Source: Gammaproteobacteria bacterium | GTDB taxonomy: Bacteria > Pseudomonadota > Gammaproteobacteria > Pseudomonadales > Azotimanducaceae | Reading direction: 5' to 3' | Assembly (NCBI GenBank): GCA_026706385.1 | Contig: JAPOYV010000126.1 | Coordinates: 1-51,021 of the forward strand | DNA length: 51,021 nt | In this document: positions 2,470 to 47,556 of the stretch, piece by piece | Numbering within the stretch: the stretch's first letter is position 1 | Layout: each line of letters begins with the position of its first letter | Notes under the pieces: model-generated | Databases searched by the model: none | What the model was told of the DNA's origin: nothing | Seen by the model: only the letters and a program-made list of their open reading frames with translations | Position numbers and translations under genes: made by a program

Positions 2470-2502
2470 CTATGCGGCTCCGGTCAGGGCACAAAGCGCC
2501 GA

Positions 2503-2560
2503 ATGGTACTCGATCCGTTGGCGGCCTCGTTCATCTCCTCGCCCGCGCACCGAGTACCAT
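2503..2560. promoter_or_regulatory. 10-bp inverted repeat in a divergent promoter region
   Basis: ATGGTACTCG at 2503-2512 is the exact reverse complement of CGAGTACCAT at 2551-2560. The pair sits between the divergently read ThDP-enzyme gene (start 2469) and the rhomboid gene (start 2567). The second arm touches the likely ribosome-binding region of the rhomboid gene. It could be a regulator site or an RNA hairpin; no regulator gene is adjacent. Confidence 0.3.
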
Positions 2561-2566
2561 GACGCG

Positions 2567-3442: not shown

Positions 3443-3443
3443 G

Positions 3444-4385
3444 CTAAGTAGCGCGCCAGCGATCCAGGATCACCGCCAGGATGATCACCGCGCCCGTCGT
3501 CACCCGCTTCGTGGGTTCGGTGATCCCAATCTGGGCGAGACCGATCTGCAGCACGGAGACGATCAGGACGCCGACGAACGCGCCCATGACCGACCCTCGC
3601 CCGCCCATCAGGCTGGTGCCGCCAATCACCGCCGCCGCGATCGCCGAGAGTTCCAGGCCGACGCCGGCGTTTGGATCCGCGGAGCCCAGGTAGGACGAAC
3701 TCATGAGCCCGCCGAGGCCGGCGAGCGCTCCGGAGATGACCAGTACCGTGCAGCGGACCTGCCTCGGGTCGATTCCCGACACCGCGGCGGCGCTCTCGTT
3801 GCTGCCCACGGCGACGATCTGGCGGCCGAAGACCGTCGACTTCAGCAGGAATTCGAACGCGATCACCAACACCAACGCGGTCATGAACGACGCCGACATG
3901 CCAAGGCCGTCGATCGGCAGCGCGAAGCCTTGGATCTGCCCGCCCATGTACACAGTCTGCGAATCCGTCACCAGATACGCGAGGCCGCGCGCGACCTCCA
4001 ACATGCCGAGGGTGACGATGAAGATCGGCAACCGCAGGTACGCGCCCAGCGACCCGTTGGCGAGGCCGGCGAGCGCCCCCGTCATGATGCCCGCGAGGGC
4101 GGCGAGGGGCACCGGCAATCCGAACAACACGACGCAGGCGCCGATGACCCCGGCGCTGAGCGCAAGCACGGAGCCGACAGAGAGATCGATGGCGCCCGAG
4201 ATCAGCACCAGGGTCATGCCGATGGCCACCACGGTCAGCGCAGGCAGTTGGTTGAGCAGTGTCGAGAGCGTCGTGACGGAGAAGAACCGCTCGGACGCGA
4301 AGCCGAAGAAGGCGACGATCGCCACCAGGGACAACAGGATCAGGTTCTCGCCGAAGAAGCGGTATACACGCGCCGATCTAGCCAC
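3444..4385 (-). CDS. Ribose-type ABC transporter permease
   Basis: 313 residues, mostly hydrophobic helices, with GAIDLSVGSVLALS, the conserved signature of the RbsC/BPD_transp_2 permease family. It forms the inner-membrane channel of the importer whose ATPase and binding protein lie immediately upstream. The GTG start is 9 bases after the ATPase stop. These permeases normally work as a homodimer with one double-domain ATPase. Substrates of the family are pentoses, hexoses, inositols or nucleosides; the actual solute cannot be read from this sequence. It is the last gene of the minus-strand run starting near 11453. Confidence 0.88.
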   Translation of the reverse strand: MARSARVYRFFGENLILLSLVAIVAFFGFASERFFSVTTLSTLLNQLPALTVVAIGMTLVLISGAIDLSVGSVLALSAGVIGACVVLFGLPVPLAALAGIMTGALAGLANGSLGAYLRLPIFIVTLGMLEVARGLAYLVTDSQTVYMGGQIQGFALPIDGLGMSASFMTALVLVIAFEFLLKSTVFGRQIVAVGSNESAAAVSGIDPRQVRCTVLVISGALAGLGGLMSSSYLGSADPNAGVGLELSAIAAAVIGGTSLMGGRGSVMGAFVGVLIVSVLQIGLAQIGITEPTKRVTTGAVIILAVILDRWRAT

Positions 4386-4394
4386 GGTAGTCCC

Positions 4395-5915
4395 TCACGC
4401 GCGGCTCGGCGTCGCTGCCGAGGAGTACTCGCTGAACGCCGCCGCCAGGATGTCCTCCTGACGCCACGTGCTGCGGTGGAACTCGGCGACGAGCTTGCGG
4501 TTCGACAACACCAACATCCGGTCGCAGAGGCTGCACAACTCTTCCAATTCGCTGGAGACGGCGACGATGGCGACCCCGGAGTCACGCAGTCTGACCAGTT
4601 CCTCGTGGATGGCGAGCTTGGCGGCGACATCGACGCCACGGGTCGGCTCGTCGAGCAGCAGCAGCCGCGACTCGCAGTGCAGCCAGCGGGCCAACATCAG
4701 CCGTTGCTGATTTCCACCGCTGAGCTCCCGAATCCTCTGTCCGATGCCCGTGCTCGTCACGCGCAGGTCTTCAATCAGCTTGGATACCGCCGGCGTCTCC
4801 CGCCCGCGCACCACGCGCCCCGCCCGGTCCGCTACGCGCCGAAGCCCCGCGATGGTCACATTGAACGCAAGGTCGCGGTCCCGGAAGATCCCGTCCCTGG
4901 CCCGGTCCTCGGCCACGTAGCCGACGCCGCAGCGGATTGCCTGGCGCGCATTTCGGATCTCCGTCGCCTCGCCAGGCCCCAAGACGGTGACCGAGCCGCC
5001 GAGTCGCCGATCGATGCCGAAGACCGCGTTCAGCAATTCCGTCCTGCCCGACCCGGCGAGGCCGGCGACGCCGAGTATCTCGCCCTGCCGGCAGTCGAAG
5101 CTGATCGGATGGCGGAGCGCGACTGAACGCAGGTCCTCGACGCGCAAAAGTACGGGGCGCGTGTCCTCGATCGACCGCGGCCGGGCGTCGAAGTCCGCAT
5201 CCGCACCGGCCATCTCGCGGATCAGCGTCTGCTCATGCAGCGCGTGGCTGTTCTCCGTCAGGCGGACCTCGCCGTCGCGCAGCACGGACACGCGGTCGCA
5301 CACGGCCAGGACATCGCGCAGACGGTGCGAGATGTAAATCACCGCCACGCCGCGTTGCGCCTCCTCGCGCAGGATTGCGTGCAACCGATCCGACTGCGGT
5401 GCCGTCAAGGCCGAGGTCGGTTCGTCCAGGATCAGCAGTTTCGGATCGGTTGCCAGCGCCCTCGCCACCTCGACAAGCTGTTTTTCCGCAAGGCTTAAGC
5501 GCCCTACGCGCACGTCCGGGCTCGCATCGAGACCCACGGTCCGAAGGACACGGGCCGCCTGCTCGTGCGCGGCTTTCCGCCTTATGCGCGCCAGACCTGA
5601 GGTCGCCGTGTGCAGCAGGATGTTCTCCGCGATGGACAGGTCGCCGACGAGACTGAGTTCCTGGGCGCAGATGGCAACACCGGCCGCGAGGGACTCCGCC
5701 GGTGTGCGCGGCTGGTACGGTCGGCCGTCCAGCAACAGGTCTCCGGAGTCCGCGTGCTCCAGCCCGACGATGATCTTCGCGAGCGTCGACTTGCCGGCGC
5801 CGTTCTCGCCCACCAAGCCGTGGATGCACCCAGTGGGAATCTCGAGGTCGACGTCTCGCAGGACGGGGGTCGCGAACGACTTGCCGATCCTTCTCGCGGC
5901 AATCCTCGGCGTCAC
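4395..5915 (-). CDS. Ribose-type ABC transporter ATPase with two nucleotide-binding domains
   Basis: 506 residues, the length expected for RbsA/MglA/XylG proteins, which fuse two ATPase domains. The first domain has Walker A GENGAGKST, the signature-like LSLAEKQLVEVA and Walker B LLILDEPTSALT. The second has the degenerate Walker A GLAGSGRTE, signature LSGGNQQRLMLAR and Walker B LLLLDEPTRGVD. A weakened second P-loop is usual in this family. Translation starts at GTG directly after the TAA of the binding-protein gene, so the two should be translationally coupled. It energises import by the neighbouring permease. Confidence 0.9.
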   Translation of the reverse strand: MTPRIAARRIGKSFATPVLRDVDLEIPTGCIHGLVGENGAGKSTLAKIIVGLEHADSGDLLLDGRPYQPRTPAESLAAGVAICAQELSLVGDLSIAENILLHTATSGLARIRRKAAHEQAARVLRTVGLDASPDVRVGRLSLAEKQLVEVARALATDPKLLILDEPTSALTAPQSDRLHAILREEAQRGVAVIYISHRLRDVLAVCDRVSVLRDGEVRLTENSHALHEQTLIREMAGADADFDARPRSIEDTRPVLLRVEDLRSVALRHPISFDCRQGEILGVAGLAGSGRTELLNAVFGIDRRLGGSVTVLGPGEATEIRNARQAIRCGVGYVAEDRARDGIFRDRDLAFNVTIAGLRRVADRAGRVVRGRETPAVSKLIEDLRVTSTGIGQRIRELSGGNQQRLMLARWLHCESRLLLLDEPTRGVDVAAKLAIHEELVRLRDSGVAIVAVSSELEELCSLCDRMLVLSNRKLVAEFHRSTWRQEDILAAAFSEYSSAATPSRA

Positions 5916-6893
5916 TTAACCCGCCGGGGATTCGCTCTCGGCTGGAACGTCGGCCCGGGTAATCACAACGGTCGGCGTCTCCCGGTCCGCGACAACGGCG
6001 TCGCCCGCGATCATGTCGAGGGCCAACTCGATCCCGTTGACCGCGAAACGGTCGCCGTACTGCTCGACCGTGGCGAGTATCCGCCCGTCCTCAAGCAACG
6101 GGTGGACCGCGGAGATGTTGTCGAAGCCGACGATGGTGACCTCGTGGTCGAGTTCCGCGAAGGACACCGCGGACGCCGCGCCCAAGGCCATGTTGTCGTT
6201 CGCCGCGAGGATGACCTGCGCCTCCGGGTGACGAACGAGAACCGCCGCAGTCACTTCCGCCGCCTTGGTCTGGTCCCATTGCGCGCTTTGCATGGTGAGC
6301 AAGGTGGCGCCGGTGTCGGCGATCGCCTCGGTGAACCCGAGCCTACGCTCGATCGCGTTGTGGGCGCTCGTGACACCCTCGAGAACGACAACGTTCGCGC
6401 CCTCCGGATACCGTTCCAGCGCGACCATGGCCGCCGCCTTGGCACCCTTGCGGTTGTCCGGGCCGATGAAGGGAATGGCCAAGTCGAACTCGGCAAGCAC
6501 ATCACGATCGAGCTGGTTGTCGATATTCACCACCTGGATGCCGTTGGTCCGGGCTCGGGCGAGCGCCGGCACCAGCGCTTTTGAGTCCGCGGGCGCGATG
6601 ACGATGGCATCAACATCCAAGGCGATCATCTGGTCCACCAGCGCAACCTGCTGCGCCAGGTCGCTCTCGTTCTTGATGCCGTTGACGACGAGCTCGTAGG
6701 CGTCCGGCCGTTCCTCCTGGTGGCGCTCGGCCGCCGCGGCCATCGTCACGAAGAACTCGTTGGCGAGCGACTTCATGATGAGGGCCACCGTGGGTTTGGC
6801 GGGCTCCTCGGTGGCCGGGCCGCAGGCCGCGAGGGCGACCAGGCTCGATAGGAGCGCGGCGACACCAAGGCGCCTTGCGCAACGGAGGTTCAT
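5916..6893 (-). CDS. Ribose-type ABC transporter substrate-binding lipoprotein
   Basis: About 325 residues from the ATG at 6893. This start is chosen because it overlaps the TGA of the upstream gene as ATGA and gives a compact lipoprotein signal, MNLRCARR followed by a hydrophobic stretch and the lipobox LAAC with Cys24. The mature part is a periplasmic-binding-protein-like domain (type I fold): VALIMKSLANEFFVTMAAAA, then DAIVIAPADSKALVP, as in RbsB-type proteins. It captures a small solute, probably a sugar or nucleoside, and delivers it to the adjacent permease and ATPase. Coupling to the upstream glycohydrolase-like gene hints that the ligand is released by that enzyme. Confidence 0.88.
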   Translation of the reverse strand: MNLRCARRLGVAALLSSLVALAACGPATEEPAKPTVALIMKSLANEFFVTMAAAAERHQEERPDAYELVVNGIKNESDLAQQVALVDQMIALDVDAIVIAPADSKALVPALARARTNGIQVVNIDNQLDRDVLAEFDLAIPFIGPDNRKGAKAAAMVALERYPEGANVVVLEGVTSAHNAIERRLGFTEAIADTGATLLTMQSAQWDQTKAAEVTAAVLVRHPEAQVILAANDNMALGAASAVSFAELDHEVTIVGFDNISAVHPLLEDGRILATVEQYGDRFAVNGIELALDMIAGDAVVADRETPTVVITRADVPAESESPAG

Positions 6894-8176
6894 GGCGCGG
6901 CCCCGGGAATGACCCACCCGTCGCTACCGACCTCGCCGCCGATCTCGTCCGCGACGACCCGGTCGACGATCGCGATCCCGGTCGCCGCCATGGCTTCGAA
7001 GTTGTCAACGCCATTGGAAACGGGGAAACCCCGCCGCGTGCGATGGATGTTGTAGCGGTCCGAGAACTGCTGGCCGAACGCCTCTTCGATGCCCGCCTTG
7101 CCGTCCATGAAGCCAAGCAGGCCACCCCAGGTCGCCGCCGGGTTGTCGGAGTCCCAGCCGGCGAGCACGGCAATCTTGACCGTCTCCTGGTAGTCGCCCT
7201 CGCCGTAGAGCAGGCTGACGATGCTAGCGGCGAAGTTGATGCCGGACGCGAAGCAACCGTTGCAGAAGACGTTGCGCGACGTCATGTCGTAGCCGTCGGC
7301 CTGGTCTACCTGGTAGCGCTGGTACACCTCGTCGCGGGCCTGCTCCCAGGGCACGTCCGCCTCGTAGCGGCCCTTGACGAAGTCGTACATCTTCGCGCTC
7401 GTCGATTCATCGGGCAGATGCGCCCTCGCCGCGGCAGCCATCGACTGGACCTGCGCCTTGCGCGACTTCGCCGGATCAGCGCTTGCGGCGAGGGCATACA
7501 TCACCACGTAGAACTCCGATGCCAGGGCGGCTTCGCCGCTCGCGGTCGTCGCGATCGGCAGCTTCGCCATCGCGAGCGCGATATCCGGCCGGCCCGGCGC
7601 GTAGAGCCCGAAGATCTCCGTGGTCAATTGGGCATCGATCATCTCGTAGAACTCGTTGTTGTCCGGGTCGCTCGTCGCCGGCGGGACCATGCCTTCGAGC
7701 ATCAGGTCGTGGGCGCGCTGGTTGGACACCCAAAGGAAGTTCTCGCGTTCGTTCTCGTCGTAGATGTGTGCGAGCCAGCCGTCCCTGATCTGCTCGCCCG
7801 TCAACCGCGTGGTCGCGTTCGTAGCGAGCAGGTGCTGGTACATGTACTCGATGTCCGTGTCGTCGTCGGCACCCCAGATCTCGTTCGGTGCGCGACGAAT
7901 CCAGTCGATGTTGCGCGACAGATTCGACCGGCCGCCCCAGGCGTTCGGTTGATCCTCCCCGCCCCAATCCTCTCGGGTGTAGAACACGCCGGCGTCGCCT
8001 TCGCCGCCGATCTTGTCCATCTCCGTGATGATGCCCGTCCAGTTGGCGATGCACTGACCCAGCCAGAAGCCGTGCAGCTTTTCCGCGTACTCCGACTTGG
8101 AAAGGGTCAGGTCGTCCGCCTGGGCCATCGACGCGCAGAGCGCCACGAACGCGAGAGAGTAGAGGGGCCGTCGCAT
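6890..8176 (-). CDS. Exported ADP-ribosylglycohydrolase-fold protein
   Basis: The ADP-ribosylglycohydrolase family (all-alpha di-metal hydrolases) is recognisable from two acidic blocks. WGADDDTDIEY stands where the family has DDT, and AGWDSDNPAATWGGLLG stands where it has the DTD/GG block. The metal-binding Asp residues are largely kept. Unlike cytoplasmic ADPRH or DraG enzymes it has an apparent signal peptide, MRRPLYSLAFVALCASMAQA, so it should act in the periplasm. The start at 8176 fits that peptide; an upstream ATG at 8209 overlaps the previous stop as TAATG and is the alternative. The 3' end overlaps the binding-lipoprotein gene by ATGA. Family members cleave N- or O-glycosidic bonds of ADP-ribose or related ribosides; the substrate here is unknown. 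Confidence 0.8.
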   Translation of the reverse strand: MRRPLYSLAFVALCASMAQADDLTLSKSEYAEKLHGFWLGQCIANWTGIITEMDKIGGEGDAGVFYTREDWGGEDQPNAWGGRSNLSRNIDWIRRAPNEIWGADDDTDIEYMYQHLLATNATTRLTGEQIRDGWLAHIYDENERENFLWVSNQRAHDLMLEGMVPPATSDPDNNEFYEMIDAQLTTEIFGLYAPGRPDIALAMAKLPIATTASGEAALASEFYVVMYALAASADPAKSRKAQVQSMAAAARAHLPDESTSAKMYDFVKGRYEADVPWEQARDEVYQRYQVDQADGYDMTSRNVFCNGCFASGINFAASIVSLLYGEGDYQETVKIAVLAGWDSDNPAATWGGLLGFMDGKAGIEEAFGQQFSDRYNIHRTRRGFPVSNGVDNFEAMAATGIAIVDRVVADEIGGEVGSDGWVIPGAAP

Positions 8177-8208
8177 GGAGGCATACCTGCTTTGAGGGCG
8201 ATCCAGCA

Positions 8209-10059
8209 TTATGGCGTAGCGCTTTCACGACCCGCAATGCGCTGCGCCTTGCTCTCGTCCCACCACCAAGCGTCCGGAAAGCCCGTGCGGAACGGCGGAT
8301 CTTCTTCCGGCCTGCCGAACTTGTCCCAGTAGACGACCCGCGGACCCGAGATGCCGACCAGCGGGATGTAGTAGTAGTTCCACAGCAGCACGCGATCCAG
8401 CGCACGCGCCGCCGCGATCAGTTCGTCCATCGAGCGCGCACCGAGGGTCTTCTCGAGCATCTTGTCGACGGCGGGATGGTCGATCCCGGCCCAGTTCGTC
8501 AGCGCCGACGATGCTGACGAGGAATGCACGCGACCCCGCAAGCCGGACTCGGGCGTGATGCCAGCGCCGAAGTTGCCGAAAACCACGTCGAACTCCCCTT
8601 CGGTCAGGATATTCACGAACTGGGCGGTCTCGACCATTCGAATGGTCGAGCGTATGCCGAGGCGCGCCAGGTGGTTGACGTAAGGCAGCAGCGTGCGGCG
8701 CTCATTCGCCGTCCGGATCACGAAGCGCAAGGAGAATGGCCGGCCGCTTTCGTCGCGCAGTTCGCCCTCGTGCGTGCGCCAACCCGCCTCGCCGAAGAGG
8801 TTCGAGGCGTCGATCAAGGCTCCTCGGTTGTCACCGAAGCCGCTCGATCGCGGCAACTCGAACGCCTCGGTGAAGAGCGCCGCCGGCAGCGACCCGCGGA
8901 ACGGCTCCAGGAGGCGATGCTCCGCCGCCGAGGGCGGACCCCGCGCCGCAAGATAGGAGCCGGGAAAGTAACTCATGGGCCTGTCGTAGAGGCCGTGATT
9001 CAACGCGCGGTTGCCCCACTCGTAGTCGAATGCCATGGAGAGCGCTTGCCGAACACGCCGGTCGGCGAGCTTCTCCTGGCGGGTATTGAACGCGATGCCA
9101 CTGCGAAAGCCTACGTACGACATGTAGTTGTGACGGCGCATGACCAGCCACCCCTTGTCCTTGGCCGGAATGTCGTAGCCGGTCGCCCAGTAGCGCGGCT
9201 CGGCTTCGACGCGGTAGTCCACGAGGCCCTTGCGCAACGCTTCGCGCTCGACGGTGGCATCGTGGTACACCTCGTAGCGGACAGCGTCGAAGTTGTGCCG
9301 GCCGCGGTGGATTCCGAGGTGTCGCCCCCAGTAGTCGGGTACCCGCTCGTAGCGGATGTAGCGGCCGGGCTGGAAGTCGGCGATCCGGTACGGGCCACTA
9401 CCGAGCGGCGGTTCCAGGGTTGTTTGCGTCAGGTCCCGATCGCGCCAATAGTGCTCGGGGACGATGGGCCACTTGCCCATGACCATCACGTTGTTGGGGC
9501 CTAAGCCGCTCACATCGCGGAAGCGGAAGCGGATCTCGCGCTCGCCAAGGATCTCGATCGTGTCGATGAACCCGAAGGCCTGCTTGACGCCGCCCATGCC
9601 GTGCTCGGCGATCCAATCGAAGGTGAACTTGACGTCCCGGGCCGTGACGGGCACGCCGTCGTGCCAACGCGCTTCCGGACGTAGGCGGAAGACCGTCCAA
9701 CTGTAGTCCTCGGCGAGCGCGACGCTTTCCACGAGGTTGCCGTAGAAGCTGCCCGGTTCGTCGTCGGACGGCCAGAACAACGGGTCGTAGACCATCGCCA
9801 GTTCGATCACGTGCAGCCCGGGCGGGTTGATCCCCTTGCCGATGTTCGGCGTGAAGCTGTTGAACTTACTAGCCGTGGCGAGCACCAGCGTGCCGCCCTT
9901 GGGGGCGTCGGGGTTCACGTAGTCGAAGTGCGCGAAGCCTTGGCGGTACTTCAACGCCGCGAAGTTCGACACGCCGTGGCGGAACTGCGGCTCGGCGTAC
10001 CCACACGCCGCGATCAGGAGCGCCCCCGCAAAGGCAATCAACGCGGGCACTGCGCCCAA
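8209..10059 (-). CDS. Family 5 extracellular solute-binding protein, YejA-like
   Basis: 616 residues, typical of peptide/nickel/opine binding proteins (SBP_bac_5). The N-terminus ends in a lipobox-like LIAACG, followed by the mature motifs YVNPDAPKGGTLVLATASKF, DGVPVTARDVKFTFDWI and LADRRVRQALSMAFDYEW. The NPDAPKGG block resembles YejA, the periplasmic component of a microcin C/oligopeptide importer. The first available start is TTG at 10059, with GTG at 10050 as alternative. No matching dipeptide-type permease or ATPase genes lie in the window, so it is an orphan binding protein inside a run that encodes a ribose-type importer. It begins 21 bases after the PhyH gene and ends at the ADP-ribosylglycohydrolase-like gene. 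Confidence 0.85.
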   Translation of the reverse strand: MGAVPALIAFAGALLIAACGYAEPQFRHGVSNFAALKYRQGFAHFDYVNPDAPKGGTLVLATASKFNSFTPNIGKGINPPGLHVIELAMVYDPLFWPSDDEPGSFYGNLVESVALAEDYSWTVFRLRPEARWHDGVPVTARDVKFTFDWIAEHGMGGVKQAFGFIDTIEILGEREIRFRFRDVSGLGPNNVMVMGKWPIVPEHYWRDRDLTQTTLEPPLGSGPYRIADFQPGRYIRYERVPDYWGRHLGIHRGRHNFDAVRYEVYHDATVEREALRKGLVDYRVEAEPRYWATGYDIPAKDKGWLVMRRHNYMSYVGFRSGIAFNTRQEKLADRRVRQALSMAFDYEWGNRALNHGLYDRPMSYFPGSYLAARGPPSAAEHRLLEPFRGSLPAALFTEAFELPRSSGFGDNRGALIDASNLFGEAGWRTHEGELRDESGRPFSLRFVIRTANERRTLLPYVNHLARLGIRSTIRMVETAQFVNILTEGEFDVVFGNFGAGITPESGLRGRVHSSSASSALTNWAGIDHPAVDKMLEKTLGARSMDELIAAARALDRVLLWNYYYIPLVGISGPRVVYWDKFGRPEEDPPFRTGFPDAWWWDESKAQRIAGRESATP

Positions 10060-10080
10060 GGACTTATGCGCGCCGCAGCC

Positions 10081-10962
10081 CTATAGCTTCGCGGCGGCAG
10101 CGGCGTACATGAACTTCTTCATGTCCACATCGTTCTTCGGCGTCGCGGTGTGGAAGAAGAGCTCCGCACCCAGAAGCTGCCGCATACCCTCCGGCGCGCT
10201 CGCCATGTAGGCCTCGTCCTTCAAAAGGTATGTGAAGTCGTCGATGGGCTGCGTGTAGAGACGCTGATAGGTGGCGTGCAGCACTGTGCGTGTGCCGGGA
10301 ATCCTGCGTGGCAAGGAACCGTGCCAGACCGCGCCGTCCCAGACGGCGACGTCGCCCTTCTGTGTCTCGATGGCCACGGGCTCGGCGGTCTCGAGGTCCT
10401 TCGCCGTGGGCGGCCGGCGCAATCGGTGCGAGCCGGGCACGACGCAGGTCGCGCCGCCGGCATGGGTCATCCCCTCGCAGGCGAAACAGAAGGTCATCAC
10501 CAGGTTGTGTTCGGGGAACGGCACCGGCATCCAGTTCTGGTCCGCGTGCAGGCCCAAGGCGCCGTCGCCCTCGCCTGTGAACTGGTGCTTGATGCTGCCG
10601 ACGAAGCGGCCGCCGCGCATCGCCTTTCCGCAACTGAACTCCGCGATCGCCATCACCTTCGGCAAGGTCGCAATGCGGTCCACCGCGGGGTGCCGACCCA
10701 GTAGGAGCGGCGCCGAGCCCACGATGCCCGTGGCGCTCGCATCCTCGGTGGGCGTGGACAGCGTATGAATGGCCTCGCGCAGGTCATCCCAAAGCGCCGG
10801 CGGCCCGGCTTGCCGGATCACGCCGTAGCCGTGCTCTCGGAGGCTGGCGATGACGTCCCAGAGCTCGAATTCGTCGATGCGCGGGCGCAATTCGTCCGAC
10901 ACTTCGAACGGTCCGACCGGCTTCGCTTCCTCCGGTCGCTCAAGAGTCTCGGCTTCGGCCAT
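10081..10962 (-). CDS. Phytanoyl-CoA dioxygenase (PhyH) family protein 1
   Basis: 293 residues. Fe(II)/2-oxoglutarate oxygenases of the PhyH family have an HxD...H iron triad, here most likely His139, Asp141 (LHADQNW) and His214 (VWHG), with Arg225 placed to bind 2-oxoglutarate. The ATG at 10962 has a GAGGGG ribosome-binding site. It should hydroxylate a small organic molecule in the cytoplasm; the family ranges from phytanoyl-CoA to phosphonates and ectoine. It is clearly paralogous to the gene at 14990-15922. The shared blocks LYTQPIDD, TYLLKDE and YMASAPE indicate a fairly recent duplication. It is the second gene of the seven-gene minus-strand run. Confidence 0.88.
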   Translation of the reverse strand: MAEAETLERPEEAKPVGPFEVSDELRPRIDEFELWDVIASLREHGYGVIRQAGPPALWDDLREAIHTLSTPTEDASATGIVGSAPLLLGRHPAVDRIATLPKVMAIAEFSCGKAMRGGRFVGSIKHQFTGEGDGALGLHADQNWMPVPFPEHNLVMTFCFACEGMTHAGGATCVVPGSHRLRRPPTAKDLETAEPVAIETQKGDVAVWDGAVWHGSLPRRIPGTRTVLHATYQRLYTQPIDDFTYLLKDEAYMASAPEGMRQLLGAELFFHTATPKNDVDMKKFMYAAAAAKL

Positions 10963-11039
10963 CGTGGTATCCCCTCACGGTGAGCTTGAGGATACTAGCA
11001 CCCCGTTTGGTGTGCGGCCGTGGACGCCCGCACCAGCAC

Positions 11040-11453
11040 CTAGGCCGTGATGAGCGCCATCTTGTTGTGCAACTCGACCAGCCACGCCGGAAAGATGCTC
11101 GTATCGCCCTGGACGTCCGGGGGTGGCCGGGAGGACAGTTCGGCGACGATCTCCGGCGTATAGACCGTGCGCGCCCCTGGCAGCGCGGTCTCGTAGTCCG
11201 CACGGATCTTGACATCCGTGTCGTCCACTTCGCCGGTGCCGACCGTGACGCTCCTGCCGTTGATGAAGAAGTACCAGGCGGCCGTGCCCGATGGTGCGAC
11301 CTTCGCCGGCACGTCCGTGAAGACCTCGCATACGCTGAGCCTGGTGTCGTCGTCGCAATGCTCGGCCACGAGTTCCTCGAGAACGCCCCGGGCCGCGTCG
11401 ACCCACGCCGCGCCTGCAAAGTCAACCTTGGCGGTCTCCGCTTGTTCGCTCAT
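11040..11453 (-). CDS. Small SCP2-like protein of unknown function
   Basis: About 137 residues from the ATG at 11453, preceded by AAAGGGA; the upstream ATG at 11477 lacks a ribosome-binding site. No signal peptide or membrane segment is seen. The middle part (AWYFFINGRSVTVGTGEVDD followed by TDVKIRADYETALPG) resembles the beta-sheet core of sterol-carrier-protein-2-like domains, which bind hydrophobic ligands. This is a weak family guess. The gene leads the seven-gene run and faces the TonB receptor gene. Its first eight codons (MSEQAETA) are identical in DNA to those of the PhyH gene at 14990. Confidence 0.6.
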   Translation of the reverse strand: MSEQAETAKVDFAGAAWVDAARGVLEELVAEHCDDDTRLSVCEVFTDVPAKVAPSGTAAWYFFINGRSVTVGTGEVDDTDVKIRADYETALPGARTVYTPEIVAELSSRPPPDVQGDTSIFPAWLVELHNKMALITA

Positions 11454-11486
11454 TTCGTTCCCTTTGATTGCAGCCATTTGATTCTA

Positions 11487-11500
11487 ACGGGGATTCCCGT
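11487..11500. promoter_or_regulatory. Short palindrome in the TonB/SCP2-like divergent region
   Basis: ACGGG-GATT-CCCGT forms a 14-bp inverted repeat between the starts at 11453 and 11608. Its position between two divergent transcription units makes it a possible regulator site, but five-base arms are short enough to arise by chance in this GC-rich DNA. Confidence 0.22.
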
Positions 11501-11607
11501 GCGCCCCGCAAGGCCGTGGCGGACGCGGGCTTCCTCGGCGCGAGCCTTCGGAAACCGCGTCAATTGTGTCAAGATGTGTCCAGTTCGTTAAAGGCTAGGG
11601 ACTTAGC

Positions 11608-14016
11608 ATGAACCCATTCAGCGACGTGCGCATTGTGCGCAGTTCCCTCGTCGTTCCGGCCCTTCTTCTCGTCCTTCCGACGTCCTTCGCCCGGGCCCAG
11701 TCGATGGCCGAGGACGCAGAGCCGATGATCGAGGAAGTGATCGTGACCGCCACATACCGCGAAACCGACCTGATGGACACGGCACAGTCCATCAGTGCTG
11801 TCACCGACAGCCTGGTAGAGGATCTGGGCGGTCAAAGCATGGGCGACATCTTCACCATGGTGCCGGGCTTAAGCATGCAGGGGGGCTACAACGGCGAAAA
11901 CCGCTACACCGTTCGCGGCGTGACGTCGCAGACCGGCAGCACCGGCTACTTCCTGACCGGCGCCACCATCGGCGTCTACCTGGACGGCACGCCGGTCACG
12001 GCGGCGCTCGGCCCGGACAACCAGGTCAGCGGCACGCTGTTCGACATCGAGCGCGTCGAGGTCCTCAAAGGGCCCCAGGGGACGCTATTCGGGGAAGGCT
12101 CCCAAGGCGGGACGATCCGCTACCTTTACAAGCAGCCGGACCCCACCGAGTTCGACGCGGCCGTCAACGCGAGCTACTCGAACATGGGCTATTCCAGTAA
12201 GAACTCCAGGCGCATCGACGGCATGGTCAACATTCCGTTCGGCGACGGCTTCGCGCTGCGCCTCACCGGGTGGGAGGCCGAGACGGCGGGCTACATCGAT
12301 GAACTCGGGACCGACGGCGTGCTGGCCGCGGAGGACACCAACTCGGCGGGCCGCGAAGGCTTCCGCGCGGCTCTGCGCTACGAGGCCGATCGATTCTCGA
12401 TCGCGGGCACGGTATACAGCAGCACGCAGGAGACCGACGGCACCCTGAGGACGGTGCGCGCATACGAGGCCCCCCCCACGCCCAGTGTGGAAGGCTACGC
12501 AAACATCTCCACGGACGAGATCGACATCTACAGCCTCGTCGTGGAAGTCGATTTCGACTGGGCGAACTTCCAGTCGATGACGTCCTTCACGGACCGGAAG
12601 ATCCCGTCGGTCATCAACGTGGAATACACGGGCTTCTGGGGATTGGACTTCGTCTACGGCGGATCGACGTTGGCCGCAGACCACCCGGGCTGCACGCCCG
12701 CATTCTCCTTCGGGTTCTGTCCAGGGTGGCCTGGATTCTTCAATCTTGCCGTGCCGGGATCCGTCATCCCGGACGGCAGGAACATCGCGGCATTCGTGGC
12801 CCTGGGCAACAACTACAGCGAACGCATGGTTCAAGAGTTCCGCCTGGTCTCGCCCGGCGATCAGCGGCTGCGCTGGACGGCCGGTGCGTTCTGGAAGGAC
12901 AGCGAGGATCACAGCCAGAACCAGCAGATCAGCTTGTACAACCCAGGACGCGAGGGCTTCGGCACATTCTTCGACCCGCTGCTGATGGTTCCCGCCAACA
13001 CCCACACCGACTTGCTCGAAGAGTACGCGGCGTTCGGCGAGGTCAGCTACGACCTCACCGACCAACTCGAGGTCACGGCGGGCTTAAGGGTCTCCGACCT
13101 CCAGCAGTACTTCTCGAACACGGACTCGGGCACCGACGACACTCCCGTGTCGCCGAAGTTCGTGGTGTCGTGGCGGCCGCTGGATGAGATGCTGCTGTAT
13201 TTCAACTACGCCACCGGGTTCCGGCCGGGCAACGTCAACAACCACATGGAGTTCAACGTCCGCCAGCTCGGAATCCAGATCGAGCAGGCGATGGCGGCCG
13301 GGAACACGGAGGGAGTGCCCCTGCTGCGCCAGGGCCAGGAACTCTCCCGAGCGCACCGATTCTTCGATGGCGACCATGTGTCCAGCTTTGAGGTCGGTTT
13401 CAAGAGCACGCTTCTGGACGGTCGAATGGCCGTGCTTGCCTCGGCCTACTATGTCGACTGGGCCGAGATGATCCTGGTCGAGGACGTCCCTGCGCTTCGC
13501 GCACTGACTCCCGGAACGAGCGTCTACAACACGAACAGCGGCGGCGCCGAAATCCAGGGCTTCGAGATGGAACTGACCGCATTCGTGACCGAGCGCTTGG
13601 CGGTTCGCCTCGCCGGTGACGTCGTGGATACGGAAGTGACGAAGGGGCCGGCGCAGTCTACGGACAGTCCCGAAGGCGCCGAGCTGCTCTACGCGCCGGA
13701 CAAGAGCGGCTCGTTGGCCGTGGACTACACCATTCCACTGAATGACGGCTGGAACATGGTGCTCCACGCCGACCGAGCGTACGTGGCCGAGCAGTTCGCC
13801 AATACCGAGAACACGCTCGTCATTCCGAGCTACCAGAAGTCGAACGCTCGAGTCACCCTGCGCAGTGCCGACGACAAGTGGCGCATCGCCGCTTACGCGA
13901 CCAACCTCAGCAACAACGCGATCCTGAGCGGTCGATCCCAGCAGCCGATCTTCTACTGGTACCCGCCACGCCAGGTGGGCATCGAGGTGGGCTACAACGG
14001 CAACTTCCGCGACTGA
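11608..14016 (+). CDS. TonB-dependent outer-membrane receptor 1
   Basis: 802 residues. A signal peptide ends near SFARAQ and is followed by the TonB box-like IEEVIVTATYRE. The plug domain follows (VPGLSMQGGYNGENRYTVRG, FDIERVEVLKGPQGTLFGEG) and then a long beta-barrel. It imports a scarce nutrient across the outer membrane using TonB/ExbBD energy. The C-terminus (GYNGNFRD) lacks the usual terminal aromatic residue. It is followed 15 bases later by a PhyH gene with a strong ribosome-binding site, so both are likely co-transcribed. Receptor, oxygenases and the divergent ABC importer together suggest one uptake-and-catabolism locus. The ligand is unknown. Confidence 0.9.
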   Translation: MNPFSDVRIVRSSLVVPALLLVLPTSFARAQSMAEDAEPMIEEVIVTATYRETDLMDTAQSISAVTDSLVEDLGGQSMGDIFTMVPGLSMQGGYNGENRYTVRGVTSQTGSTGYFLTGATIGVYLDGTPVTAALGPDNQVSGTLFDIERVEVLKGPQGTLFGEGSQGGTIRYLYKQPDPTEFDAAVNASYSNMGYSSKNSRRIDGMVNIPFGDGFALRLTGWEAETAGYIDELGTDGVLAAEDTNSAGREGFRAALRYEADRFSIAGTVYSSTQETDGTLRTVRAYEAPPTPSVEGYANISTDEIDIYSLVVEVDFDWANFQSMTSFTDRKIPSVINVEYTGFWGLDFVYGGSTLAADHPGCTPAFSFGFCPGWPGFFNLAVPGSVIPDGRNIAAFVALGNNYSERMVQEFRLVSPGDQRLRWTAGAFWKDSEDHSQNQQISLYNPGREGFGTFFDPLLMVPANTHTDLLEEYAAFGEVSYDLTDQLEVTAGLRVSDLQQYFSNTDSGTDDTPVSPKFVVSWRPLDEMLLYFNYATGFRPGNVNNHMEFNVRQLGIQIEQAMAAGNTEGVPLLRQGQELSRAHRFFDGDHVSSFEVGFKSTLLDGRMAVLASAYYVDWAEMILVEDVPALRALTPGTSVYNTNSGGAEIQGFEMELTAFVTERLAVRLAGDVVDTEVTKGPAQSTDSPEGAELLYAPDKSGSLAVDYTIPLNDGWNMVLHADRAYVAEQFANTENTLVIPSYQKSNARVTLRSADDKWRIAAYATNLSNNAILSGRSQQPIFYWYPPRQVGIEVGYNGNFRD

Positions 14017-14031
14017 TCCGAGGAGGATCCC

Positions 14032-14946
14032 ATGGAAGCAGCCACTGCCAACGTGAAGCGCCTAGACGAACTCGCGCGACTCAAGATCGAGCGCAATGCG
14101 CTGGAGCTGGAGGCGAACGGCTACACCGTGGTCGAGGATGCCCTCGATCCGGATCTCACCGCGCGCGGCCTCGAAGCCGCCTTGACGAGCATCGACGAGC
14201 GCACGGGCAAACGCCCGAAGATCGAGTCGGACGCGGGCTACGGCGGCTACTGGGTGTGGCGATACATGCTCCTGAAGGATCCGGCCTTCGAAGAGATCGT
14301 GATGGCGGAGAAGGTGCTGGCGCTGGTCGACTACCTCGTCGGCGATGACTGCATCCTCAGCACGCTGACCTGCCACATCCGGGGCGAGGGCCGCAGCAAG
14401 GACTTACCAACCGGCTACCTGCCGTTGCACGGCGACGATCCGCATCCACACGCGGGGTTCAACAACTCCGTCACCGTGAACATCTGCCTGACCGACGTGA
14501 CCGAGGAGTCCGGATGCCTGGCGTTCGTCCCCGGCAGCCACAAATTGGCGCGGCAGCCGGCCCCGAAGGAGCGCGTGCTTGCCGGGGACGGTGCCAACGA
14601 CGAGGCCGTGCCGCTCGTCGCGCCGGCCGGTTCGGCGATCATCTGGCCCTCCCACACTTGGCATGGCTCCTGGGAGTCGCCGTCACCGGGGTTGCGCGTC
14701 ACCTTGGCGGTGCTCTATGCGCGACCCCATCTTCAGCCCTACGAGCTCTACCGGGAGACCGTGCCGGACGAAGTGCTCGAGCGGAACTCGCCGCGCTTCG
14801 CGACGCTCATGGGCATGGACACGATGAGCGGCTGGAACGACAACCAGGACGACTGGCACAAGAAATGGCGCGACCGGGACCGGTCCCGGTATGCACCGCG
14901 GGTCGTGGCGGCGAGCGCGGCGGGTTCGCAGAGCGTCGAGCACTGA
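14032..14946 (+). CDS. Phytanoyl-CoA dioxygenase (PhyH) family protein 2
   Basis: 304 residues, starting at an ATG preceded by AGGAGG. The iron ligands are most likely His133 and Asp135 (LHGDD) and His211 (TWHGSW), with Arg222 for 2-oxoglutarate. The fold start (ERNALELEANGYTVVEDAL) is typical of the family. It lies between the TonB receptor gene and a second PhyH gene, 15 and 43 bases away, and probably belongs to one transcript. It is more like the frameshifted gene at 19944-20853 than like the two paralogs containing LYTQPIDD. The substrate is unknown. Confidence 0.88.
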   Translation: MEAATANVKRLDELARLKIERNALELEANGYTVVEDALDPDLTARGLEAALTSIDERTGKRPKIESDAGYGGYWVWRYMLLKDPAFEEIVMAEKVLALVDYLVGDDCILSTLTCHIRGEGRSKDLPTGYLPLHGDDPHPHAGFNNSVTVNICLTDVTEESGCLAFVPGSHKLARQPAPKERVLAGDGANDEAVPLVAPAGSAIIWPSHTWHGSWESPSPGLRVTLAVLYARPHLQPYELYRETVPDEVLERNSPRFATLMGMDTMSGWNDNQDDWHKKWRDRDRSRYAPRVVAASAAGSQSVEH

Positions 14947-14989
14947 TCCACGTGATGTATATTCCACCGAGTTCCTAGGGAGGGTCGCC

Positions 14990-15922
14990 ATGAGCGAACA
15001 AGCGGAGACCGCCGTGGAAGAAAACCCGAGAATGGCCTTGCTGGGCGAACGGGCCAAGGTACTCCAGCCGCTTATGAACAGCGTGCAGAAGAGCAACGGC
15101 CTGCTCGGGCCCTACGACGTCGCGGACCACCTGCAAGCCAGGATCGACGAGCTCGATCTCGCCGATTCCATCGCGCACTTCCGCGAGCACGGCTACGCGG
15201 CGATCCCCGACGTCGCTCCGCCCGAGGAGATGGACGAGCTACGCGAGGCGATTCACAGCCTGTCCGGCGAGATTGTCGTCGGCACGCCCACCCGCGGCGC
15301 GTCGTATCTGCTCGGCCGCCATCCCGCCATCGACCGGATCGCGACCAATCCCAAGATACTCGCCTTCGCGGAGGTCAGCGTTGGCAACGGGCTGCGCGCT
15401 AGCCAGTTCGCGGCGTCCATCATGGGCAAGGTTGAAAAGCCCTTTGCCGGCGGCATACACGCTGACCAGAACTGGCTGCCGGCACCGTTCCCGGAACACA
15501 ACTGCGTCATCACCTTCTGCATCCCCTGCGACGGCATGACGGACGAAGAAGGTGCAACGCGCGTCGTCCCGGGGTCGCACCTCAAGCGCCGGCACCCGAC
15601 GCCCGACGAGGCCAAGTCGGAGACGGTCCCCATCGAGGTCGAGAAAGGCGGCGTCGCCGTCTGGGACGGATCCGTCTGGCACGGCACCGGTTGGCGACGC
15701 GTCGACGGCGTGCGCACCGTGCTCCACGCCACCTATCAGCGGCTCTACACCCAGCCCATCGACGACTACACCTACCTGTTGAAGGATGAGGACTACATGG
15801 CATCCGCGCCCGAAGCCATGCGCGGACTGCTCGGCGAGCGGCTGTTCTTCGGCACCGCCCACGCCGGCAGCATGGTCGACATGGGCAAGTTCACGGAAGC
15901 AACGATCCGTTCCAAGCTGTAG
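14990..15922 (+). CDS. Phytanoyl-CoA dioxygenase (PhyH) family protein 3
   Basis: 310 residues from the ATG at 14990, chosen because AGGGAGGG lies five bases upstream. The longer open frame would run back into the previous gene. The likely iron triad is His157, Asp159 (IHADQNW) and His231 (VWHG), with Arg242 for 2-oxoglutarate. It is a close paralog of the divergent-strand gene at 10081-10962, with about 30 extra N-terminal residues. Its first 24 bases are identical to those of the SCP2-like gene at 11453. It should be a cytoplasmic Fe(II)/2-oxoglutarate hydroxylase in the same pathway as its neighbours. Confidence 0.88.
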   Translation: MSEQAETAVEENPRMALLGERAKVLQPLMNSVQKSNGLLGPYDVADHLQARIDELDLADSIAHFREHGYAAIPDVAPPEEMDELREAIHSLSGEIVVGTPTRGASYLLGRHPAIDRIATNPKILAFAEVSVGNGLRASQFAASIMGKVEKPFAGGIHADQNWLPAPFPEHNCVITFCIPCDGMTDEEGATRVVPGSHLKRRHPTPDEAKSETVPIEVEKGGVAVWDGSVWHGTGWRRVDGVRTVLHATYQRLYTQPIDDYTYLLKDEDYMASAPEAMRGLLGERLFFGTAHAGSMVDMGKFTEATIRSKL

Positions 15923-16078
15923 AGGCCGACCGGTCGTTCGCTCCAACCACCCGTCACTGCGAGTCCTGGTCGAGGTTCAGCATCCGGCCGGGCCTTCAAC
16001 GCCCCAGTGTCCGGAATCCGACAGACCCAGTCGGGCTCGACCAGTCGTGTAACCAGTTCGAATCGAGAGGAAGGCAGC

Positions 16079-16750
16079 ATGGATGTGTTCGAAGCGATGA
16101 TGACGCAGAAGAGCATTCGCCGTTACAGCGACGAGCCCGTGTCCGACGACGAGATTCGGCAATGTCTGAAGGCGGCGGTGCAGGCGCCGAACGGCGGCAA
16201 CAGCCAGCCGTGGCAGTGGCTGGTGGTGCGCGACGCCGACAAGAAACGCCAAATCGGCGAGTGCTATCGCAGGGCGTTCCACGAGCGCTATTGGCCGGCC
16301 ATCACCCGACTGTCGGCCAACGCCGCCCGCGATGTGTCCGACGAGGCGCGCAAGGCGGGAGAACGCACTGCGGCCTCCGCAATCCACCTCGCCGATCACC
16401 TCGGCGAGGCCCAGGCACTGGTCATGCTGATCGGCACCCGTGCCGAGCGCGACTGGGAGCTTCACGACGACCAAGGCCTGATCGACATCGGTCGAACCTA
16501 CTACACGTCGCTCATTCCCGCGCTGCAGAACTTCATGCTCGCCGCCCGTGGGCTCGGCATCGGCACCTGCCTGACCACCCTTTTCCGCGTACACCAGCCT
16601 GAGATACGCGAGATCTGCGGTATCCCGGACGACCGTGAGATTGAGGCGCTGGTACCCATGGGGCGACCGCGAGGCCATTTCGGGGTCGCGCCCCGCATCC
16701 CGGCGGCGCAACGTACCTCCTGGGACACCTGGGGCGAGCACCGCGACTGA
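16079..16750 (+). CDS. Nitroreductase-family FMN oxidoreductase
   Basis: 223 residues from the ATG at 16079, which has AGAGGAAGG upstream; a longer in-frame start at 16007 lacks such a site. The N-terminus MDVFEAMMTQKSIRRYSDEP and the block APNGGNSQPWQWLVV are typical FMN-contacting parts of the nitroreductase fold, and GLGIGTCLTT marks the C-terminal half. Family members are dimeric NAD(P)H-dependent reductases of nitro compounds, quinones, enones or iodotyrosines. Set among PhyH oxygenases it probably takes a redox step on the same substrate. The actual reaction is not predictable. Confidence 0.85.
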   Translation: MDVFEAMMTQKSIRRYSDEPVSDDEIRQCLKAAVQAPNGGNSQPWQWLVVRDADKKRQIGECYRRAFHERYWPAITRLSANAARDVSDEARKAGERTAASAIHLADHLGEAQALVMLIGTRAERDWELHDDQGLIDIGRTYYTSLIPALQNFMLAARGLGIGTCLTTLFRVHQPEIREICGIPDDREIEALVPMGRPRGHFGVAPRIPAAQRTSWDTWGEHRD

Positions 16751-16796
16751 GCCCGCAACTGGTCTGTCCGCACCCACATACACCCTAGGGGTCCAT

Positions 16797-16821
16797 GTGC
16801 AGACGCGCGCGAGCGCTGCAC
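16797..16821. promoter_or_regulatory. Inverted repeat upstream of PhyH gene 4
   Basis: GTGCAG at 16797-16802 and CTGCAC at 16816-16821 form a six-base inverted repeat with a 13-base spacer. It lies about 40 bases before the ATG at 16864, inside a 113-base gap that also carries the AAGGAGGTG ribosome-binding site. It could be an operator or part of a leader hairpin. The evidence is weak. Confidence 0.2.
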
Positions 16822-16863
16822 TTGGGCTACATTTGCTCAAACAGTCCGAAGGAGGTGCTTCGA

Positions 16864-17958
16864 ATGGCCGAGCTGCGAACGTTGACCCTGGATGAGAAGC
16901 GAACGCTGTACCGAGACGGCTACATCGTGCTCAAGAAGGCCGTGTCCGACGATCTGGTCGATGCCGCCAGAGCCCGCATCAAGTCCGCGAAGAAGGGCGA
17001 AAGGCTCGGTGGCGAGCAGGTCATGATCGATCTCGTCAATGCGTCGAGCATCACGCCGATCCTGCATGACGTGATGGGGCAATTCGATCCCCCGACCGCG
17101 TGCCAGGTGGGCGTGATCAAGCCCAGTCAGCCAAGCGACCGGTTCAACAACGTCGGCTACCGGGACCGCGACATGCCCTACTACGGCGCGCAGACCCACA
17201 TGGACGGCAGCATCACGATCGCCGCGCCCCAGGAGGTCCAGGAAGGCACGCCCGACGAGATCTACCGGCGCCACTTCGCCTCCGGTCCGAAGGGCGACCT
17301 CGGCCGCAGCCCAGAGGTGATGGGACACAACATGGTGCCGCTGTTCGAGGATCCGGCAATGACGCTGGGGCTGGGCAGTTTCACCGCGTTCGTGTTCGTG
17401 TGTCTCAACGACCAGACCGAGGAAGGCTGCGGCCAGACCGCGCTATTGCGCGGTGCCCATCACGACATGGAGAGTTTCTTCCAGTGGCAATACGCCACCA
17501 ACGGCCGTCTCGGTCCCGAGGGGCCCGGCTGGCCCCGGCTGAACTACGCGGCCCCGAACCGCTGCGGGATGGTGTACATGCCGCCTTCCGTCCAGGACAA
17601 GTTCGTCGACGACACCTCCGACTCCACGCCCGACGGCAAGAAGTGGCCGCGGCCGACGCAGATCCTCATGGAACCCGGCGACGCGTGCATCACGTCCTAC
17701 CACATCCCGCACTCGGGCACGCGCAACGAGAACGGGACGGAGTCCCGCAAGAACATCATCTTCCGGATCCGCAACAAGAAGCGGCAGCCGAACGTCGTGG
17801 TGAGCGGCGTCACCGACCACCCCGACCGGGGCCAGATGGGCGAGTGGCTCGACTTCGAGGAGGGCAACGACCCGTGGGAGCGGTCCAAGTACGCCATGTG
17901 CAACATGTGGCACGAGTGGGACGGCATGGGCGACGTGGTCGCCGAGGAGCGCGCATAG
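16864..17958 (+). CDS. Phytanoyl-CoA dioxygenase (PhyH) family protein 4, divergent
   Basis: 364 residues from the ATG at 16864, preceded by a near-ideal AAGGAGGTG. The proximal iron ligands are probably His112 and Asp114 (THMDGS), with a distal histidine in the HIPHSGTRNENGTESRKN segment. It is longer than its four neighbours and has a different middle region, with conserved-looking aromatic and proline stretches, so it belongs to another PhyH subgroup. It may hydroxylate a later intermediate. It closes the plus-strand group that begins with the TonB receptor. Confidence 0.8.
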   Translation: MAELRTLTLDEKRTLYRDGYIVLKKAVSDDLVDAARARIKSAKKGERLGGEQVMIDLVNASSITPILHDVMGQFDPPTACQVGVIKPSQPSDRFNNVGYRDRDMPYYGAQTHMDGSITIAAPQEVQEGTPDEIYRRHFASGPKGDLGRSPEVMGHNMVPLFEDPAMTLGLGSFTAFVFVCLNDQTEEGCGQTALLRGAHHDMESFFQWQYATNGRLGPEGPGWPRLNYAAPNRCGMVYMPPSVQDKFVDDTSDSTPDGKKWPRPTQILMEPGDACITSYHIPHSGTRNENGTESRKNIIFRIRNKKRQPNVVVSGVTDHPDRGQMGEWLDFEEGNDPWERSKYAMCNMWHEWDGMGDVVAEERA

Positions 17959-18038
17959 CGGATTTCGCTCGCGGCTCCACCCATGCCATTGGGCGGCGGA
18001 ACCTGTTCACGGCCCCCCGGGTCGTGCCACTCGCACGA

Positions 18039-33065: not shown

Positions 33066-33077
33066 GCAGTAAGTTAT

Positions 33078-33093
33078 TCTACCGGCCAGGAAA
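33078..33093. promoter_or_regulatory. Possible TetR half-site
   Basis: TCTACC-GGCC-AGGAAA lies between the divergent transporter and TonB receptor genes. Only the left arm equals the palindrome found in front of tetR (TCTACC-N4-GGTAGA); the right arm is poor. It is listed because the location matches the pattern of the two better sites. Confidence 0.2.
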
Positions 33094-33115
33094 AAGACGG
33101 ATCGGAGGGTACCAC

Positions 33116-47495: not shown

Positions 47496-47556
47496 GCCCT
47501 CGCCGCGCCCGCGCTTCAACGCGCGGCCTGCCGGGGAGGCATCCCGATAGGACCCT

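Follow-up and report, generated by a model that had tools for sequence, protein, structure and literature searches.

A conserved ribose-type import unit with an ADP-ribosylglycohydrolase-fold enzyme, probably joined by a deletion to a separate uptake-oxidation cluster in a gammaproteobacterium of the Azotimanducaceae

Results

Genes of the locus

We analysed a stretch of 51,021 nucleotides from a gammaproteobacterium of the Azotimanducaceae (contig JAPOYV010000126.1 of assembly GCA_026706385.1), hereafter the window, which corresponds to contig C114 in a draft genome of 5.1 Mb (G000). Between positions 3444 and 17958 it carries a minus-strand gene run with a predicted exported ADP-ribosylglycohydrolase-fold enzyme and a ribose-type ATP-binding cassette (ABC) importer, and a divergent group with a TonB-dependent receptor and PhyH-family oxygenases (Table 1). 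A first-pass annotation had read these genes as one locus for uptake and catabolism. Comparison with relatives suggests that two units probably lie here side by side, a ribose-scavenging operon (3444–8209, module A) and a separate uptake-oxidation cluster (8209–17958, module B), apparently joined by a recent deletion.

Open reading frames (ORFs) were present at every position that had been annotated, their families were assigned with Pfam, and codon-usage scoring selected the same ORFs (it was trained on 13 ORFs, these among them). The near-contiguity of the minus-strand genes was also confirmed on the sequence: their junctions measure 77 and 21 bases, a 1-base stop/start overlap (TAATG at 8209), –4, 0 and 9 bases. 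The value of –4 holds if the sugar-binding lipoprotein begins at its probable start, ATG 6893, which overlaps the enzyme stop by 4 bases (6890–6893). Window proteins scanned by profile were those of 2435–17958. Within 2400–18100 no sigma-70-like promoter was found and terminator-like sites were as numerous as expected by chance; Rfam gave no match above gathering score within the window, and short repeats at the divergent promoter were unconvincing.

Table 1. Features of the two modules, the junction between them and a PhyH gene elsewhere (aa, amino acids)
Feature	Module	Position	Strand	Basis
CUT2-type sugar ABC permease	A	3444..4385	-	Pfam BPD_transp_2, E 5.1e-48
Double ABC ATPase, AraG/XylG/RbsA type	A	4395..5915	-	two Pfam ABC_tran
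Sugar-binding lipoprotein	A	5916..6893 (ORF to 6917)	-	Pfam Peripla_BP_4
Predicted exported ADP-ribosylglycohydrolase-fold enzyme, 439 aa	A	6890..8209	-	Pfam ADP_ribosyl_GH (PF03747)
Putative breakpoint: SBP_bac_5 3' end abuts enzyme gene		8209..8240	-	comparison with G007
YejA/MbnE-like SBP_bac_5 lipoprotein	B	8209..10059	-	Pfam SBP_bac_5
PhyH oxygenase a	B	10081..10962	-	Pfam PhyH
SCP2-fold small protein	B	11040..11477	-	AlphaFold and Foldseek; no Pfam match
TonB-dependent receptor	B	11608..14016	+	Pfam
PhyH oxygenase b	B	14032..14946	+	Pfam PhyH
PhyH oxygenase c, paralog of a	B	14891..15922	+	Pfam PhyH
Nitroreductase-family protein	B	16007..16750	+	Pfam nitroreductase
Divergent PhyH-like protein d	B	16795..17958	+	PhyH E 0.0034, below Pfam cut-off
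PhyH-family gene outside module B, about 400 aa		G000:C52:71271-72452 (L153); L047:8047-9252		PhyH E 3.6e-11 (L047)

A four-gene unit with a ribose theme

Relative loci (n = 15, L039–L053) were fetched around the stronger enzyme matches; several were short or ended by contig ends. In 10 of the 15 (L039–L048) the enzyme, the binding protein, the double ATPase and the permease form one block at 63–97% identity, with permease orthologs 80–97% identical and the ATPase match of L041 split in two pieces. The enzyme occurs without the importer in L049–L051, and in L052 and L053 the locus is incomplete or truncated at a contig end. From named genomes the best 80 of 567 confirmed enzyme loci (57–77% identical) were kept. 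Some contigs are common to both sets: L061 duplicates L047 and L062 duplicates L042, and the permease of L062 was read from its duplicate L042. Of the 80 named loci, 14 have ATPase and permease next to the enzyme, in two gene orders. A FastTree tree was built from the window's enzyme and those of 78 named loci (79 sequences; the other two loci had no called frame). On it the window's order forms a single clade of nine (support 0.991), and the other order lies elsewhere.

A link to ribose comes from neighbour cluster c5, a ribokinase found in the gene run of the enzyme in 8 of the 80 named loci (L073, L091, L093, L094, L097, L101, L117 and L118), where it is separated from the enzyme by a few bases or a single gene, or is the first gene of an importer-enzyme block; on the tree this linkage needs four changes. 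All eight kinases score above the TIGR02152 ribokinase cut-off of 299.65 bits (L117 375.6, the other seven 352–391), and a hidden Markov model built from them found one further, weaker kinase match among the 80 loci (L082). Five of the eight loci (L073, L091, L094, L101 and L117) also hold a sugar symporter, cluster c8, whose scanned member from L117 matches RhaT/GlcU and, weakly, an RbsU-type profile (Pfam Ureide_permease and Sugar_transport). In L097 and L093 a second member of the enzyme family adjoins the ribokinase too, and in G036 a distant enzyme homolog stands head to head with a ribokinase that scores below the cut-off. This neighbourhood evidence supports a single conserved unit, ribose-themed, made up of the exported enzyme and the ribose-type ABC importer. 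A literature search in a limited collection, by titles and abstracts, found no description of this enzyme with ribose import.

The uptake-oxidation genes in relatives

Only one of the 15 relative loci, L039 (from G007, enzyme 94% identical), shows the receptor, the SBP_bac_5 gene, the SCP2 gene and these PhyH orthologs as well; in the others the sole matches were to part of the receptor (29%, L046) and to PhyH (27%, L048). The four-gene block stands without module B in nine relative loci, seven of them with several kilobases of upstream DNA visible. Conserved synteny, which the first-pass annotation had named as the test that could refute it, is found for the four-gene core (10 of 15 loci) and not for the whole set. 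Of the single locus proposed there, the enzyme with its ABC importer survives as a conserved unit, and the receptor and PhyH genes are, L039 apart, not seen joined to it in the relative loci; a pathway from this TonB receptor via these PhyH enzymes to the importer, for which both parts occur in L039 alone, is not borne out.

Module B genes also occur apart from the enzyme. G013, assembled as one contig, carries the receptor (61–62%), PhyH b (73%) and PhyH a (73%) adjacent to one another, with the nitroreductase (82%) and the SCP2-fold gene (69%) within 6 kb, the five genes within about 10 kb; there is no enzyme match in the whole genome and no SBP_bac_5 match in the two stretches fetched from it. 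G004 and G010 each have a related cluster, with receptor and PhyH b paired at 35% and a diverged SBP_bac_5 gene close by (G004, 48%; G010, two overlapping pieces of match at 54% and 42%), and this cluster and the enzyme are on different contigs. A beta-lactamase-family gene lies between in G004, and FecR and sigma-factor genes adjoin its receptor. PhyH a orthologs at ≥76% were detected in G000, G005, G007, G009, G013 and G014 among the 58 genomes searched for PhyH orthologs, and in G005, G009 and G014 they and the enzyme are on different contigs. By this comparison the two units occur separately. The nitroreductase is absent from the corresponding place in G007, and none lies between PhyH c and d in L143. 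A module B-like arrangement was seen at L150:3908-14820, with a sigma factor, FecR, a TonB receptor, PhyH, SBP_bac_5, a beta-lactamase-family protein and a GH32 gene.

The junction between the modules

The junction itself differs between the window and G007. On the enzyme side, window DNA to 8240 matches G007 as far as L039 8617; on the SBP_bac_5 side, window DNA from 8237 matches G007 from L039 13102. The intervening 4.5 kb or so of G007 (L039:8618-13101) hold a Uma2-type ORF, a pyrroloquinoline quinone dehydrogenase and an additional, incomplete SBP_bac_5 3' end (L039 9812–9953). In its last codons the SBP_bac_5 gene of the window resembles the G007 sequence immediately upstream of the enzyme gene, and both G007 copies of the 3' end finish alike and differently from the window copy. 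A deletion in the window's lineage would be the simplest account of the tight junction, with an insertion in G007 as the alternative. The G007 SBP_bac_5 gene matches in two reading frames, which may be natural or an assembly error.

The ADP-ribosylglycohydrolase-fold enzyme

The enzyme scores 93.3 bits against PF03747 (curated cut-off 26.2), and its N-terminus looks, by eye, like a signal peptide. Its AlphaFold model, built with 38 sequences, has a mean pLDDT of 89.9 and displays the all-helical ADP-ribosylhydrolase fold of the family. Foldseek returned 30 matches at E ≤0.001, mostly ARH3 but also DraG and related chains, with TM-scores by target of 0.51–0.67 and identities of only about 10–14%; a PDB profile search with the enzyme alignment matched no solved chain at E 0.1. 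Residues D115–D117, T118, D353, D355 and N356 (DDDTD and DxDN) are invariant in the 38 sequences. By eye these acidic motifs resemble the metal site of ARH3 and DraG (in ARH3, T76-D77-D78 and D314-x-D316-T317). E63 is invariant in the 38 sequences too, and could be the counterpart of ARH3 Glu41. A published account of ARH3 describes roles for Glu41, T76, D77 and D78, and names alpha-NAD as a substrate (PMC8319183).

A match to the enzyme at E ≤1e-10 was obtained in 27 of the 97 genomes searched; weaker matches there, at 26–31% identity, look like other members of the family. The best 80 of the 567 confirmed loci come from Gammaproteobacteria, Bacteroidota, Hyphomonadaceae, Neomarinimicrobiota, a Gemmatimonadales bin and others, and cultured carriers include Flavobacterium and Robiginitalea. 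Some have further neighbours: one gene cluster beside or near the enzyme (L105:8973-9875, L110:9014-9850, L121:4951-5805 and L125:13385-14224), whose scanned member, from L105, is of the endonuclease/exonuclease/phosphatase family, and, also near it in L105, L110 and L125, genes of a cluster with a BglX-like scanned member. Together these neighbours perhaps point to a phosphoryl-ribosyl polymer as the enzyme's substrate.

The importer

The binding protein, the ATPase and the permease all score under the equivalog cut-offs of the listed named sugar systems. The nearest solved structure to the binding lipoprotein is 4yle_A (E 2.1e-78), listed only as a binding protein. The window's lipoprotein keeps 10 of 14 listed ribose-contact positions of RbsB. 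Each of the 12 complete substrate-binding proteins (SBPs) compared, both ribokinase-linked ones included, has the window's letters at all 14 positions (loci without a called ORF were excluded, and the partial L082 sequence differs at one position). The two gene orders thus probably share a ligand.

A PhyH gene outside module B, apparently coupled to the enzyme

The first-pass annotation had joined its PhyH oxygenases to the importer. An oxygenase may indeed be so joined, with a gene other than those. The PhyH-family gene represented by L153 and L047:8047-9252 has an extra N-terminal region of roughly 110 amino acids, and stands divergent from the enzyme, adjacent or one gene off, in L042, L043, L045, L047, L052, L059 and L063. 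Orthologs at ≥68% identity occur in 11 of the 58 genomes: the 10 compared members of the window's genus with a strong enzyme match, and G022, which also has a strong enzyme match. In the six genus members without the enzyme (G001, which is 81% complete, G006, G011, G012, G013 and G015) there are no close orthologs, only weaker copies of ≤61% over part of the length. Such a split, 10 of 10 against 0 of 6, would have a chance of 1 in 8008 if the genomes were independent, which they are not; the enzyme match of G002 is a fragment at a contig end.

The coupled PhyH and the enzyme lie on different contigs in 6 of the 11 genomes, the window's own included, and the neighbours of the unlinked gene are common within G000/G007 and within G005/G009/G014, not between these groups. 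A 64% copy occurs in G035, where the only enzyme homolog is distant; in G031, G069 and G072 the enzyme match is strong, with no coupled PhyH at E 1e-40. Within the window's genus the enzyme does seem to have a coupled PhyH, one from outside module B.

Genes of module B and their surroundings

The SBP_bac_5 lipoprotein is closest in the PDB to YejA-type proteins (7z8e, E 9.2e-127; YejA, 4.8e-119), with MbnE also matched (5icq, 3e-89), and no PF00528 (BPD_transp_1) permease for it was matched on the contig. The genome has 22 SBP_bac_5 genes, 9 of them without a BPD_transp_1 permease within 3 kb; the window's gene, one of these 22, was rejected as a part of module A. PhyH a and c are 60% identical paralogs flanking the receptor, and the translation of d, though below the Pfam cut-off, carries an HxD...H pattern. 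With 95 PhyH matches in the 5.1 Mb genome, a PhyH neighbour alone is weak evidence; the locus is nevertheless the genome's densest cluster of them (four within 11 kb). A PhyH match stands no more than 2 kb from 6 of the 11 listed YejA-like copies (14 counted; expected 1.2, P 0.0005), but only 6 of all 22 SBP_bac_5 genes have one within 2.5 kb (expected 2.6, P 0.04), a modest proximity link in the own genome that was tested after the fact. The model of the 11040–11477 protein (pLDDT 88.3) gave SCP2-type chains in the first 16 Foldseek rows (best E 2.8e-4, TM-scores 0.35–0.62).

Beyond a PhyH gene at 20080–20853 the window carries a phage-type integrase with an Arm-DNA-binding domain (21091–22254) and, near it, an ORF for a PLD-type nuclease (23292–24584); this is a possible edge of a mobile region. 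No tRNA was found within the window, and a tRNA as insertion site was rejected. Further along, an MFS_2 sugar-type transporter and a second TonB receptor stand back to back (31626–35416), and an MFS_2 gene also adjoins the G013 module B cluster (L138:2664-4103). Over 26000–50000 the G+C content rises from about 0.64–0.69 to 0.69–0.77 with a stronger negative GC skew, and a minus-strand ORF of 2461 codons lies at 40293–47678.

Discussion

We propose that the locus probably combines two units of different function. In module A a metal-dependent enzyme would be exported to the periplasm and there cleave a riboside; the ribose set free would be captured by the binding lipoprotein and taken in through the CUT2 ABC transporter. 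Module B would serve another compound, probably peptide-like or lipophilic, which the TonB receptor would take across the outer membrane, the YejA/MbnE-like lipoprotein would bind, and the PhyH oxygenases, the nitroreductase and the SCP2-fold carrier would modify. In the window's lineage the 3' end of the module B binding-protein gene would have been fused by a deletion with the beginning of module A, and the modules may therefore now share a transcript without a shared substrate.

Several observations weigh against this proposal. In most of the 80 named loci neither importer nor ribokinase lies near the enzyme, and with such partners in a minority the substrate of the enzyme may vary. No ribokinase is linked to the enzyme in the window's genome, where the top-scoring candidate, on another contig, reaches 223 bits against the cut-off of 299.65. 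The binding lipoprotein falls far below the RbsB equivalog cut-off (142.2 versus 337 bits), and 4 of the 14 listed pocket positions are changed (N64, R90, S103 and F164). The absence of module B from L041 and L046 is weak, as these contigs end within 2 kb upstream of the enzyme. Finally, 4 of the 15 relative loci have nitroreductase-family genes (32–33% identity) upstream of the enzyme; together with the divergent PhyH gene near the enzyme in several loci, they suggest that oxidation may belong to module A. A kinase at C28 in the own genome, considered as a partner of module A, is uninformative because a similar one is found whether or not the enzyme is present (in all of G000–G015 except G001).

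One could still see a single integrated pathway here: a ribosylated molecule would enter by the TonB receptor and be cleaved in the periplasm, its ribose would pass through the ABC transporter, and its aglycone would be oxidised by the PhyH and nitroreductase enzymes. The nearly contiguous minus-strand genes, the neighbourhood of both modules in G007 and the recurrence of PhyH or nitroreductase-family genes near the enzyme in other genomes would fit it. However, G013 has module B parts without the enzyme, of the 10 relative loci that carry the four-gene block all but one are without receptor, SBP_bac_5 and SCP2 orthologs (seven of these nine with several kilobases of upstream DNA), and the tight junction is not common to G007. 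On gene distribution and junction we rejected the joined pathway as the main account, and regard it as improbable. The two-unit proposal could also hold with a different sugar, a related furanose or modified pentose on which ribokinase-type kinases act in some lineages. Pocket positions 90 and 164, which differ from RbsB, the lack of a ribokinase above cut-off in the own genome and the uninformative name of 4yle leave room for this, but the eight linked kinases pass the ribokinase equivalog cut-off, and two SBPs beside such kinases have the window's pocket letters; we consider another sugar unlikely, though worth keeping in mind. We see only a slight probability that module A takes up ADP-ribosylated or NAD-derived matter. 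The enzyme would then have kept ADP-ribosyl hydrolase activity and, outside the cytoplasm, would strip arginine, serine or nicotinamide of ADP-ribose, and a fragment would pass through the importer. This would suit the ARH3/DraG fold and the similar acidic motifs, whereas the identity to those structures is only about 10–14%, the scanned window proteins include no phosphodiesterase or Nudix match, and the endonuclease/exonuclease/phosphatase-family cluster adjoins the enzyme in a few Bacteroidota loci only.

On the reading of a ribose-scavenging operon beside a separate cluster, module A can be compared with known systems. Published descriptions of the Rus locus of Bacteroides thetaiotaomicron (BT2803-2809) give it a ribokinase, a transporter and a hydrolase thought to free ribose (PMC10434189, PMC12596196). 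By analogy we read module A as resembling Rus, with this enzyme in the place of the nucleoside hydrolase; L073, L091, L094, L101 and L117 come close to it, having ribokinase, RhaT/RbsU-like symporter and enzyme side by side. Module A of the window differs in that it has no ribokinase, no SusC/SusD pair (there is no SusD-type match among the scanned proteins), a hydrolase of the ADP-ribosylglycohydrolase fold and import by an ABC transporter. ADP-ribosylglycohydrolases may also be reported for some Rus loci. With ARH1, ARH3 and DraG (PF03747) the enzyme has in common the family score, the fold and acidic motifs that by eye resemble the metal site, but it stands apart by its signal-peptide-like N-terminus, its length of about 440 amino acids, its low identity and its sugar-import gene context. 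The importer is built like RbsABC and other CUT2 systems, from one binding protein, one double ATPase and one permease, though with scores below the equivalog cut-offs and the four pocket differences from RbsB. As for module B, a TonB receptor near a YejA/MbnE-type lipoprotein, also seen in G004 and G010, recalls the MbnT/MbnE pairing in methanobactin uptake (PMC7558416); module B differs by its added PhyH oxygenases, nitroreductase and SCP2-fold protein and by the lack of a BPD_transp_1 permease on its contig.

A wider interpretation is possible, and we offer it tentatively, as more doubtful than the two-unit proposal. The exported enzyme family may be a branch of riboside hydrolases within the ADP-ribosylglycohydrolase fold, spread over Bacteroidota, Gammaproteobacteria and other phyla, that supplies CUT2 or RbsU-type importers with ribose and in one gammaproteobacterial genus works with a dedicated PhyH (G000:C52:71271-72452) on the same riboside or its aglycone. 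Characterised members of the ADP-ribosylglycohydrolase fold cleave alpha-ribosidic bonds, as with alpha-NAD for ARH3, so the natural substrates could be alpha-ribosides, on which, to our knowledge, nucleoside hydrolases do not act.

The locus suggests that a tidy, closely packed series of genes, seen in one genome, can result from two units that fused recently. If the proposed role is true, a widespread exported branch linked to ribose kinases and ribose importers would place the ADP-ribosylglycohydrolase fold, studied as an eraser of protein ADP-ribosylation, in carbon scavenging, and many proteins annotated only as ADP-ribosylglycohydrolase family would gain a testable function.

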